Source of the DNA: a virus
DNA: 29,026 nucleotides
Virus record (IMG/VR): IMGVR_UViG_3300042691_006467
Location: 1 to 29,026 of that record
Direction: 5' to 3' (one strand)
Shown: piece by piece, positions 1,144 to 4,143 of the stretch
Layout of the letters: every line of letters starts with the position of its first letter
Position numbering within the stretch: position 1 is the stretch's first letter
Made by a program: the position numbers and the translations under genes
Notes under the pieces: model-generated
The model's input: only the letters and a program-made list of their open reading frames with translations
The model's database searches: none
What the model was told of the DNA's origin: nothing

Positions 1144-1484
1144 TGAGTGCTAAATATAATCTAACCTGCGACCAGGCAACCACATTTAATTTTCAGTTTC
1201 AGATTCTAAACGATACAACTCCTTGGAATCTAACTTCTTATACTGGAACTATGACAGTAAGACCATTCGTTGGTGCATCAAATACAACCCTTGTTGCATC
1301 TACATCTAATGGCTATATGGTTTTAAGTCCTACAGATGGACGTATCAATGTAACAGTCCCAGCATCTGTTACTGCCGACATTGCATCTGGTAGGTATTCA
1401 TATGATTTGGTACTTGACTCTGGCGGTACCGTAACAAGAATTCTTGAAGGCAAATTCGTTGTGACAGGAGCAGTGACTACTTGA
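1143..1484 (+). CDS. Predicted beta-rich structural protein (fibre/baseplate-like)
   Basis: A 113-residue protein with alternating hydrophobic residues and many Thr, Ser and Val, as in an immunoglobulin-like or BppU-N-like beta sandwich: [32 protein letters not shown] and [19 protein letters not shown]. Proteins of this pattern usually sit at the root of phage fibres or baseplates (family knowledge, weak match). The stop TGA at 1482-1484 overlaps the TTG start of the collagen-like gene, so an anchor role for that fibre is an attractive inference. Confidence 0.65.
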
Positions 1485-2458
1485 CAACAATAATTGTTAT
1501 TGAATCCATCACACCGCAAGTAGGCGTAGAATTATCTAATGACCAAGGACCGCAAGGTATCCAAGGCGTCACAGGTCCGACCGGACCTACTGGTCCTACA
1601 GGACCTGCTGGCGTTGGGGTTACCGGTGCTACCGGAGCGACTGGCGCAACGGGCGCCACTGGTCCACAAGGAGCAACAGGTGTTACAGGAGATACTGGTC
1701 CGACTGGGGCTACAGGCCCGCAGGGAGACACTGGTGCAACCGGACCCGTTGGTGCTACAGGCGCAACGGGCGATACGGGAGCAACGGGTGCAACAGGACC
1801 TCAAGGTATTGCAGGAGACACGGGAGCGACTGGACCGACTGGTCCGGTAGGAGCGACCGGTCCAACTGGACCGCAGGGTGATATAGGTGTAACCGGTGCC
1901 ACAGGTCCACAAGGCGTAACCGGAGATACAGGCGCTACAGGACCAACTGGTCCTCAAGGTGCGACTGGACCTGCCGGAGATGTGGGTGCTACAGGCCCTG
2001 TAGGGGCCACAGGACCTACCGGACCGCAAGGAGTGACTGGAGATGTCGGACCAACAGGTCCAGCAGGCGCTACGGGCGCTACAGGGCCTCAAGGCCCACA
2101 AGGTGATGTCGGTGCTACGGGACCTACGGGTCCAGCGGGAGCAACCGGACCTGTCGGAGCAACTGGACCACAAGGAGTAACAGGTGATATTGGACCTACT
2201 GGTGCTACTGGTCCCATTGGGGCTACTGGCCCTGCTGGTGACGTTGGCGCAACTGGAGCGACTGGTCCTCAAGGGCCAGCAGGAGATATTGGAGCAACAG
2301 GACCGACAGGCCCTGCAGGTGCGACAGGCCCAACGGGACCTACAGGTCCTGTGGGAGCAACAGGAGCCACTGGTCCTGAAGGACCCACTGGAGTAACTGG
2401 CGCTACCGGACCAGGGGCAGATGCAATTCCAGTATCTTTATTCTTGGGTGGTATGTGA
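1481..2458 (+). CDS. Collagen-like Gly-X-Thr repeat fibre protein
   Basis: A 325-residue protein. After a 22-residue head ([20 protein letters not shown]), Gly recurs every third residue from about 23 to 312: 96 triplets with one two-residue break (GV, near residue 43). The Y position is most often Thr (GAT, GPT, GDT, GVT), then Gln or Ala. A 13-residue hydrophobic tail ([13 protein letters not shown]) closes it. Such repeats form trimeric collagen triple helices in phage tail fibres and bacterial surface proteins. The start is TTG 1481 with GACAGGAG just upstream. All four glycine codons are mixed, so the DNA is far less repetitive than the protein. Glycosyltransferase genes follow directly. 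Confidence 0.9.
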
Positions 2459-3024
2459 AGTTTAATGACTACTTCCCCAATCCTGTAGTTATAAATCTAG
2501 ATAGAAGGCAAGACCGGTTAGAACGATTTGACCAACAGGCTAAAGCCTTAGGTATTAGTTACACAAGGTTCAAGGCAGTAGAAGCAGTAGACCCAAGACT
2601 TGGTTGCAAACTAAGTCATATCTCAGCACTAAGTATGTGCAAGGATGACATAGCGTTTGTGTTTGAAGATGACTCAGTCTTCGTGGAAGACTTTCATCAA
2701 AAGTTTGAACAGGCTATGAACTCGGTCCCAAGAGACTGGAATATGCTCTACCTTGGAGCACATTTACTTCAGAAGCAACGGGTCAATGACCAGTGGTTTA
2801 GAAGCCTAGAGTGTTCTTCAACCCACGCTTATGCGGTCAAGAAGGAATACATACCTAGACTAATCAAGCAGGCTATGAGTATGGATGGGCATACCGATGT
2901 ATCTTTTTCAAGCCTTCATAAAGAGATTATTGCCTATGCTGCCAGACCTACCTTGGTCTATCAGGGAGCCTCATATAGCGACTTGCTGGGTAGTGATGTT
3001 GACTATACCTACTTGTATTTCTGA
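2455..3024 (+). CDS. Glycosyltransferase family 25-like protein
   Basis: A 189-residue cytoplasmic enzyme candidate. The N-terminus has the GT25 signature ([15 protein letters not shown], residues 11-25), and an acidic FEDD motif at 70-73 fits the metal/nucleotide-sugar site of GT-A folds. GT25 includes LPS galactosyltransferases and animal procollagen galactosyltransferases. It starts at a GTG that overlaps the stop of the collagen-like gene, so translation of the two is coupled. The obvious inference is that it glycosylates that fibre; modification of host surface sugars is the alternative. It is shorter than many family members but appears complete. Confidence 0.82.
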
Positions 3025-3036
3025 TACGATTGTGGT

Positions 3037-4143
3037 ATGAGATTCCACGTCGTAAGTCTACCACATACCCAAACAACTAAAGATTTTGCTAACTGCGCTT
3101 ATACCGAAAAGGTACGCAGGTTCTGCAATATGATGACTAACCTCGGTCACGAGGTTTATCTATATGCTGGCGAAGAGAATGAAGCCAACGTAACTGAACT
3201 AATCCCTTGTATTACCGAGACACAACGAAGAATCGTTGTTGGTAATAAGCCATATGTAGAAGCACCGTTTGATTACAAACTTCCGCATTGGGAGAAGTTC
3301 AATGGGAATGCTATTAAGCAAATACGTAAGCGTCTCAAAGACCAAGACTTTATCTGCTTGATTGCTGGTGCAACTCATAAGCCGATTGCAGATGCGTTTA
3401 AGACTCATATGTCAGTTGAGTTCGGAGTTGGATACTCTGGAGTATTTTCACAGTACAGAGTGTTCGAGTCTTACGCTTGGATGCACGCAGTCTATGCACA
3501 GTTCAAGAACGCAGCAACAGTAGATGGTCAGTTCTTTGATGCGGTGATTCCAGGATACCTAGACCCTGATATGTTCCCACTTGGTAAGGGTGATGGAGAT
3601 TATTACCTTTACATTGGAAGAATGGTTCCAAGAAAAGGTGTTGAAGTAGCAGCACATATCTGCAAGACAATCGGTGCCAAACTTATTATGGCAGGACCTG
3701 GTGATTACATCCCAACTTATGGTGAGTACATCGGACCTGTTGGACCTGAGAAGCGAGCAGAACTTATGGGTGGCGCTATCGCTACTTTTGTTCCAACGTT
3801 ATACATAGAACCATTTGGTAACGTAAACATTGAATCACAGGCTTGTGGAACTCCAGTAATTACAACAGACTGGGGTGCATTTACAGAGACTGTAGTTCAA
3901 GGAGTTACTGGCTATAGATGCCGAAGCGTAGAAGAATTTATTCTTGCTTCACAGAATGTAAAGAATTTAGATAGGGCTGTTATCCGCAAGAGAGCAGTTG
4001 AAACTTATGGCGTAGATGTTATCGCCAAACAATATGAATATTACTTCCAGCGTCTGCTAACACTATGGGGCGATGGTTGGTACGAAAAAGGAAAAGCAGC
4101 CGAGGCTATTGAGAAGGCCAAGGAGAAGACAACGGAGGGCTAA
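3037..4143 (+). CDS. Glycosyltransferase, GT4-like (GT-B fold)
   Basis: A 368-residue protein with a GT-B two-domain layout. The N-terminal half has the usual early segment for losing-distance control of sugar acceptors (RRFCNMMTNLGHEVYLYAG). The C-terminal half carries YYLYIGRMVPRKGVE (donor-domain start), LIMAGPGD, and the E-x7-E motif E258...E266 in EPFGNVNIESQACGTPVI, which binds the nucleotide sugar in GT4 enzymes. The C-terminus is a charged helix (EKGKAAEAIEKAKEK). The ribosome binding site is weak. It lies 12 bases after the GT25-like gene and overlaps the next stop/start by one base, so it belongs to the fibre operon. Confidence 0.87.
   Translation: MRFHVVSLPHTQTTKDFANCAYTEKVRRFCNMMTNLGHEVYLYAGEENEANVTELIPCITETQRRIVVGNKPYVEAPFDYKLPHWEKFNGNAIKQIRKRLKDQDFICLIAGATHKPIADAFKTHMSVEFGVGYSGVFSQYRVFESYAWMHAVYAQFKNAATVDGQFFDAVIPGYLDPDMFPLGKGDGDYYLYIGRMVPRKGVEVAAHICKTIGAKLIMAGPGDYIPTYGEYIGPVGPEKRAELMGGAIATFVPTLYIEPFGNVNIESQACGTPVITTDWGAFTETVVQGVTGYRCRSVEEFILASQNVKNLDRAVIRKRAVETYGVDVIAKQYEYYFQRLLTLWGDGWYEKGKAAEAIEKAKEKTTEG

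Follow-up and report, generated by a model that had tools for sequence, protein, structure and literature searches.

Gene organization of the collagen block

The DNA analysed in this study, referred to as the window, is the virus record IMGVR_UViG_3300042691_006467 over its whole length (29,026 bases, G+C 45%), and the element in question is a block of its virion module, in which the gene for a collagen-like fibre of Gly-X-Thr repeats is directly followed by two glycosyltransferase (GT) genes, one of family GT25 and the other of family GT4. The genes of this region stand in the following order.

853..1143, + strand: small virion-module protein, matching phrog_27452 (function unknown); last gene on the 5' side of the block
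1143..1484, + strand: 113-aa protein, partner gene of the collagen; phrog_1084 (3.9e-26) and phrog_3304, 'L-shaped tail fiber assembly' (2.9e-12)
1481..2458, + strand: Gly-X-Thr collagen fibre, 325 aa, TTG start; PF01391 (2.7e-43)
2455..3024, + strand: GT25 glycosyltransferase, 189 aa, GTG start overlapping the collagen stop; PF01755 (4.2e-12)
3037..4143, + strand: GT4 glycosyltransferase, 368 aa, occupying the slot before the adaptor; PF00534 (9e-15) and phrog_3408 (8.1e-79)
4143..5045, + strand: head-tail adaptor-like protein, right border of the block; SU10_adaptor (6.4e-11) and phrog_7578 (2.4e-118)

The collagen and GT25 genes overlap by 4 bp (GTGA at 2455-2458), a gap of 12 bp precedes GT4, and the junction of GT4 with the adaptor gene reads TAATG. 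The same overlap of collagen and GT25 is present in 30 distinct collagen open reading frames (ORFs), that of the window being counted in, and genes of the 1143-type travel with the collagen. This arrangement within a virion block, as described in an initial annotation made from the window alone, was borne out by the coordinates and by the Pfam and PHROG matches of the flanking genes. From the fibre gene through GT25 and GT4 to the adaptor, neighbouring genes overlap or lie no more than 12 bp apart, so that joint translation with the virion proteins is probable. Expression of the unit is probably late.

Properties of the collagen fibre protein

Against Pfam Collagen (PF01391) the collagen ORF scored 146 bits (cut-off 27.2), which places it within the family. 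It contains 95 strict Gly-X-Y triplets (7 plus 88, with a single break at residues 44-45), and its longest run spans 88 triplets, against no more than 11 in any of 2,000 shuffled versions of the sequence; the initial description as a collagen fibre with Thr dominant at Y was correct, except that the number of triplets had been given as 96. Thr occupies 60 of the 95 Y positions and none of the 95 X positions, Pro occupies 41 of 95 X and 0 of 95 Y positions, and Lys, Arg, His, Cys, Tyr and Trp are absent from the protein. Since trypsin cannot cut a fibre free of Lys and Arg, and yields no peptides from that of the window, modified fibres of this sort may be overlooked by routine proteomics.

The protein is composed of a conserved N-terminal segment (residues 1-22), the triplet region (23-309) and a tail (310-325) ending with SLFLGGM. 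Among 107 distinct collagen ORFs located beside a 1143-type gene in relatives, the start motif IE[SN]ITP[QN] was detected in 92, the ends vary (LGGM in 59 of the 107), and Thr occupies 72% of all Y positions, a share that barely varies with the presence of GT25 (73% vs 71%). From the shared start motif and the variable ends we infer that these fibres have the look of a fixed anchor with exchangeable tips. The end peptide of the window collagen (SLFLGGM, 2408-2455) is similar to that of the protein encoded at 5055-5456 (LLMLMGG, 5421-5453), and the two may perhaps share a docking peptide.

Family assignment of the glycosyltransferases

The GT25 product matched PF01755 with 46.8 bits (cut-off 24), and the residues E71, D72 and D73 of its EDD metal motif (2665-2673) are invariant in 15 of 15 aligned sequences; together with the GT-A fold of the AlphaFold model (pLDDT 93.6), these properties assign it to family GT25. 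When its profile was compared with PDB, convincing matches were obtained only with mimivirus R655 (4.3e-12) and procollagen galactosyltransferase 1, COLGALT1 (from 1.6e-10), and the nearest folds of the model by Foldseek were R655, COLGALT1 (1.1e-10) and then the beta-1,4-galactosyltransferase 8xlz (3.2e-8). Mimivirus resembles the window phage in being a virus that encodes collagens and collagen-modifying enzymes, R655 being putative (PMC9546862).

The analogy with procollagen galactosyltransferases drawn in the initial annotation fails at the acceptor, as COLGALT1, R699 and L230 act on (galactosyl)hydroxylysine or lysine (PMC9546862) and the fibre of the window has no Lys. If the fibre is the substrate, a COLGALT-like, hydroxylysine-linked reaction is therefore impossible, and this candidate was rejected; nor was a hydroxylase seen among the Pfam and PHROG matches of the block between 853 and 5045. 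With Lys missing, the acceptor is likely to be Thr of the fibre.

The GT4 product matched PF00534 (Glycos_transf_1) with 55.1 bits (cut-off 26.4) and has the GT-B fold, in agreement with family GT4. By both sequence and fold it is closest to tll1591, an alpha-1,2-glucosyltransferase (fold match 2.2e-20; model pLDDT 78.6). The GT4 genes of L283 (7746-9344, + strand) and L325 (6314-7930, - strand), located beside Thr-rich collagens, encode proteins about 165-170 aa longer than that of the window; by eye the extra part looks like a methyltransferase domain, which perhaps caps the glycan.

In relatives such as L096, the place of GT4 before the adaptor is occupied by an unrelated enzyme of 359 aa (about 360), in which a GT2 domain (PF00535, 7.9e-8) is followed by TPR, hereafter GT2-TPR. 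Comparison of its profile with PDB gave TPR proteins, GmaR, SunS and a Glyco_trans_2-like protein; GmaR and SunS are protein and peptide glycosyltransferases. This enzyme can be compared with SgtA of C. difficile, a protein of 358 aa with a GT-A domain followed by four TPRs, the gene of which lies immediately upstream of bclA3 and which in vitro transfers beta-O-GlcNAc onto Thr of BclA3 collagen-repeat peptides (PMC7157674). GT2-TPR of the relatives agrees with SgtA in length and domain order, a likeness by description and not by sequence alignment. The window itself shares with SgtA/BclA3 a GT gene adjoining a GPT-rich collagen gene (4-bp overlap, 12-bp gap), and differs in carrying GT4 plus GT25 instead of a GT-A-then-TPR enzyme and in that the substrate would be a virion fibre (PMC7157674).

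Association of collagen and glycosyltransferase genes in related phages

Relatives of the block were collected in three sets: the nearest 80 loci fetched by GT4 alone, the best 80 of 249 loci for GT25, and the nearest 80 loci fetched by the adaptor alone, which were thus chosen by neither collagen nor GT. In the GT4 set, a collagen ORF was found upstream in all 48 loci with at least 4.3 kb of upstream DNA (the other 32 were dropped, and the threshold was set after seeing the largest gap of 4.2 kb) and in 68 of the 69 loci with at least 1 kb. Seven of the 80 loci show no collagen, six of them with 0-632 bp of upstream DNA and one (L057) with 2,140 bp. Among the 73 loci that show a collagen, 26 have a gap to GT4 of at most 21 bp, 25 a gap of roughly the length of a GT25 gene (571-630 bp), and 22 a gap of 0.8-4.2 kb. 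In the GT25 set, GT25 runs straight into GT4 or GT2 in 55 loci and all 55 have a collagen upstream, so that the pair of GT genes without a collagen-like gene, which the initial annotation had named as refuting its proposal, was encountered in 0 of 55 loci.

After removal of 16 adaptor loci with less than 1.2 kb upstream, 64 could be counted, of which 53 carry collagen plus GT4 and 9 carry collagen plus GT2-TPR; the remaining two are L061, carrying GT4 with the collagen region cut off, and L111, discussed below. Of the loci of this set with no less than 2 kb of upstream DNA, 35 of 48 with GT4 and 8 of 9 with GT2 have no GT25. In the 16 adaptor loci closest to the window, GT25 accompanies GT4 in 8 of 8 cases and GT2 in none of 8. 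On a quick tree of 99 adaptors, the ingroup rows indicated 4 exchanges between GT4 and GT2 and 11 changes in the presence of GT25, numbers that become lower when the strongest branches alone are considered, the rows being taken from all sets including those chosen by GT4 or GT25. Along this tree the collagen stays while the slot enzymes, GT4 and GT2-TPR, are swapped.

The window encodes a WhiB-like regulator and a sigma-70 region-4 protein, and the nearest named relatives found for it are phages E7 and F5 of 'Ca. Planktophila'. Its terminase is closest to those of OX376641 (LanE43-AprF5) and OX376640 (LanE43-AprE7), with 46% identity of TerL, which makes a freshwater actinobacterium the likely host. 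E7 and F5 (PMC10202952) have the same genes around the site as the window, and differ in that the site is without 1143-type gene, collagen and glycosyltransferase. Sister loci were collected as the 80 nearest to the E7 adaptor, 77 of them with at least 1.2 kb upstream: a hidden Markov model (HMM) of the 1143-type gene detected it in 0 of 80, and neither a collagen in the slot nor, by HMMs derived from the clade, a GT was found (77 with at least 1.2 kb upstream). In 59 of the 80 sister loci the 853-type gene was detected directly abutting the adaptor, and the same empty site is present in the cultured phages E7 and F5. A collagen of 16 triplets lies 4.6 kb upstream in the sister locus L552, and two Streptomyces phages are also without collagen and GT. 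PF01391 finds no collagen in the records of E7 (L476) and F5 (L477); two collagen-like proteins have been reported for these phages (PMC10202952).

The absence from the sister group, as a co-gain or co-loss, counts as one event. Co-presence and co-absence within the clade of the window could accordingly reflect a single ancestral gain or loss of a syntenic block, in which the GT genes hitch-hike with the collagen without a functional link. The in-place swap of the non-homologous GT4 and GT2-TPR (4 exchanges on the quick tree) speaks against such hitch-hiking, as does the recurrence of the pairing in different surroundings, and we regard it as quite improbable.

Recurrence in other phage lineages and in bacteria

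The recurrence referred to includes Synechococcus phage ACG-2014f, in which a collagen is followed by two small genes, GT4 (39% identity) and a 2OG-Fe(II) oxygenase, and the actinophage DSL-LC01, which combines GT2-TPR with a tryptophan halogenase and two Thr-rich collagens. In two phages the halogenase gene is situated between collagen and GT2-TPR, at L352 (10361-11965, - strand) and L480 (6433-8004, + strand).

The GT4 alignment, used to scan bacterial genomes, retrieved 64 loci, for which the names Bacillota and Nocardia are those of the record titles. Among the Bacillota loci, 27 have no less than 500 bp of upstream DNA, and in 22 of these a collagen gene lies 3-285 bp before GT4, for instance in Clostridium viride DSM 6836 (L611); two of 29 loci at contig edges were dropped, and some of the remaining genomes are related. 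Thr occupies at least half of the Y positions in 18 of the 22 Bacillota collagens, and the collagen of L607 has no Thr at Y. As a control, a collagen within 300 bp upstream was found for 0 of 96 other genes, a weak control since no other gene can follow the collagen where GT4 does. In the class to which C. viride belongs, the GT2-TPR profile had matches in 50 of 291 genomes, some of them confined to the GT2 domain; of 30 such loci fetched with flanks of at most about 1.5 kb, 11 contain a collagen ORF. In L627, L629 and L632 of this class two GT2-TPR genes stand in tandem, and no collagen was found in the flanking DNA (about 1.5 kb at either end); 7 Bacillota genomes with collagen plus GT4 gave no GT2-TPR match.

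Comparison of Thr-rich and Thr-poor phage collagens

For a broader sample, viral contigs were scanned for [10 protein letters not shown] and GPAGPAGPAG, and all figures in this section concern the matches listed. Out of 185 collagen loci, 93 were kept (at least 15 triplets and at least 2 kb downstream), and these were divided into 40 Thr-rich loci, with Thr at no less than half of the Y positions, and 53 Thr-poor loci; the two sets differ in phage lineage, and the comparison leaves that difference in. By the clade-derived HMMs, a GT was found among the next four genes of 13 of 40 Thr-rich collagens versus 1 of 53 Thr-poor collagens (Fisher 4.5e-5), or 6 of 30 versus 1 of 51 when counted by cluster (p 0.009).

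Because clade-derived HMMs had been used, the count was repeated with Pfam, for which 3 of the 53 Thr-poor loci were left out. PF00535 was present anywhere in the record, at any distance from the collagen, in 19 of 40 Thr-rich versus 4 of 50 Thr-poor cases (Fisher 2.3e-5; 17 versus 3 over the cut-off). The four Thr-poor cases include L244, in which the scanned pattern lies in an ORF different from the scored one, and L294, with a Thr fraction of 0.46 and a GT2-TPR. PF01755, run on the Thr-poor records only, was found in 2 of 50. Among 137 proteins encoded next to Thr-rich collagens, Pfam identified 8 GT2, 3 GT25, 2 GT1 and 2 GT_PLOD domains, some within one protein. Among 149 neighbour proteins of Thr-poor collagens (14 of 163, from L459, L469, L471 and L472, being excluded), no GT family is present within the 25 of 71 families listed, and one GT2 (L284) stands beyond that listing. 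A general rule that every Thr-rich collagen has a glycosyltransferase was rejected, since no GT was found by the clade HMMs in the next four genes of 27 of the 40 Thr-rich loci.

Evaluation of the substrate of the glycosyltransferases

Taken together with the gene order, the associations described above make it probable that the phage builds a trimeric collagen fibre from the block of the window and that the encoded enzymes glycosylate this fibre, on Thr, while virions are assembled or earlier. The initial proposal that the phage decorates its own fibre is retained in this respect, as GTs are tied to collagen beyond synteny in several phage lineages and in cellular Bacillota, but the order it assigned, GT25 first and GT4 extending, was not established.

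Alternatively, the GTs could alter host surface glycans for superinfection exclusion or receptor change, lying near the fibre only as members of one host-recognition module. Modification of the host surface, or protection of DNA, is the role given to such genes by published authors (PMC10202952, PMC7029224), and the fold of GT4, like those of sugar-acceptor enzymes, as well as the GT4 relatives in 24 Nocardia loci without adjacent collagen, would suit a surface glycan. Nevertheless, the GT genes overlap or nearly touch virion genes and come and go with the collagen, GTs are commoner beside Thr-rich than beside Thr-poor phage collagens although the latter are fibres too, a GT recurs beside chromosomal collagens of Bacillota, and GT2-TPR, the other enzyme of the slot, is built like SgtA. 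On this balance we consider modification of the host surface unlikely. Glycosylation of phage DNA, which has also been proposed as a role of phage GTs (PMC10202952), fits neither the position among virion genes nor the pairing with collagen, and a search for base modifiers that was confined to PF00303 (thymidylate synthase-type) gave no match in 12 records, namely the window together with 11 relatives of 36-42 kb, which may be fragments; we give very little credence to this explanation.

Several observations weigh against glycosylation of the fibre by the adjacent enzymes. First, GTs of these families occur apart from collagen: E7 and F5 carry a weak GT2-like match elsewhere and no collagen, the GT2 relatives of PaBG and Lu11 and the GT25 of S-CAM7 are far from the collagens of those phages, a relative of GT25 is present in the 484-kb phage LR756508, for which PF01391 gave no match, and GT25 matches in named phages are few (8 records), none being beside a collagen in those looked at. 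The other 25 of the 80 GT25 loci are without collagen upstream, although in 7 of them the record has a collagen somewhere (6 over the cut-off), and in three of four such loci read (L208, L210 and L177) GT25 belongs to a sugar cassette in the replication module. The 24 Nocardia loci with GT4 show no collagen in the flanking DNA examined. Second, collagens occur without GT: L111 has a Thr-rich collagen with no adjacent GT, as do the 27 of 40 Thr-rich loci mentioned above, and 21 of 40 Thr-rich records have no PF00535 match; Thr at Y is in any case common in bacterial collagens (PMC8968730). Third, PDB may hold few other GT25 structures, and the likeness to COLGALT1 would then be evidence of fold rather than of substrate. 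The GT4 model is closest in fold to enzymes, tll1591 among them, whose acceptors are sugars or small molecules; this speaks against GT4 as the starter. Against the order of enzymes preferred below, it also counts that GT4 is always accompanied by GT25 in the subclade of the window, where GT25 plus GT4 as a pair may correspond to GT2-TPR alone.

The replication-module cassette (L208 7004-10232; also L210 and L177) consists of GT25, a GT2-like gene, an NAD epimerase/dehydratase and a methyltransferase-like gene, the Pfam assignment being for L208 only, and no such sugar genes were seen at the matching place of the window. In Nocardia L564 (4325-5941, and similarly L566, L567 and L568), the GT4 relative follows, with no collagen, a gene that presumably encodes EccB of type VII secretion, and in these loci it likely acts on another substrate.

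Proposed pathway and comparison with known systems

In the pathway that we propose for the window phage, a trimeric collagen fibre would be made from the block, and the slot enzyme (GT4 here, GT2-TPR in relatives) would attach a sugar to Thr at the Y position of the Gly-X-Y repeats. In those phages that have it, GT25 would then add either one more sugar or one of a different type. A general model in which GT25 must act first was not accepted: GT25 is missing from many relatives as counted above, and something other than GT25 must therefore start there. In the adaptor set the collagen has the slot enzyme as its steady partner and GT25 as an optional one, from which we infer that the slot enzyme starts and GT25 adds. 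For the window we lean to GT4 first and GT25 second, at about even odds; the fibre as substrate does not depend on the order of the enzymes.

The sugars may stabilize the triple helix in place of the hydroxyproline used in animal collagens, and the fibre would be coated with glycans. Glycosylated Thr is among the collagen-stabilizing mechanisms named, with reference to Bann 2000, in PMC3368898, and a stabilizing role fits the fibre because Pro is absent from all of its Y positions. On a prophage collagen produced in E. coli, however, no sugar was observed (PMC3368898).

BclA of Bacillus is a collagen of the exosporium, that is, of the spore coat and not of a virion, and its sugar genes differ from those of the window. 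It resembles the fibre as a bacterial collagen-like protein and carries sugars (PMC8968730). Virion glycosylation has been described for the mycobacteriophages Che8 and Rita, as cited in PMC11256854 and PMC12619734; as proposed here, phage GTs are held to decorate the virion proteins of the phage itself, but the targets are capsid and tail-tube subunits instead of a collagen fibre. Within the literature searched, which left outside most subscription journals and all preprints, no paper among the matches listed linked a phage collagen fibre to GTs of the same phage. Collagen glycosylation of the SgtA/BclA type is known, and the novelty here would be its use on a virion fibre with exchangeable enzymes.

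If correct, phages make glycosylated collagen by means of adjacent enzymes, which bears on how hydroxyproline-free collagens of bacterial type are stabilized or shielded and offers a compact enzyme set for production of glycosylated collagen in bacteria. It would also suggest that some phage GTs assigned to host surface or DNA carry the wrong substrate label.

Other enzymes beside phage collagens

As a broader and more tentative reading, to which we assign somewhat less than an even chance, phages might widely run a modular, hydroxyproline-free collagen modification, in which GT4, GT2-TPR, GT25, GT_PLOD, 2OG oxygenase, methyltransferase and tryptophan halogenase are interchangeable partners of Thr-rich collagens and build and diversify the glycan coat of the fibre; related enzymes would serve collagens of Bacillota spore-formers, implying exchange between phages and spore-formers.

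Matches to 2OG oxygenases were frequent beside Thr-rich phage collagens (9 2OG-FeII_Oxy_3 and 3 Oxy_5 in the 137 neighbour proteins) and rarer beside Thr-poor ones (2 Oxy_3 in the 149 proteins). One 7.2-kb contig encodes beside its Thr-rich collagen a 607-aa protein (L251 2798-4621, - strand) that combines GT25, PLOD-type GT and 2OG-oxygenase domains. This fusion is, we presume, reminiscent of the collagen enzymes of animals and mimivirus, and the contig could be from a giant virus.

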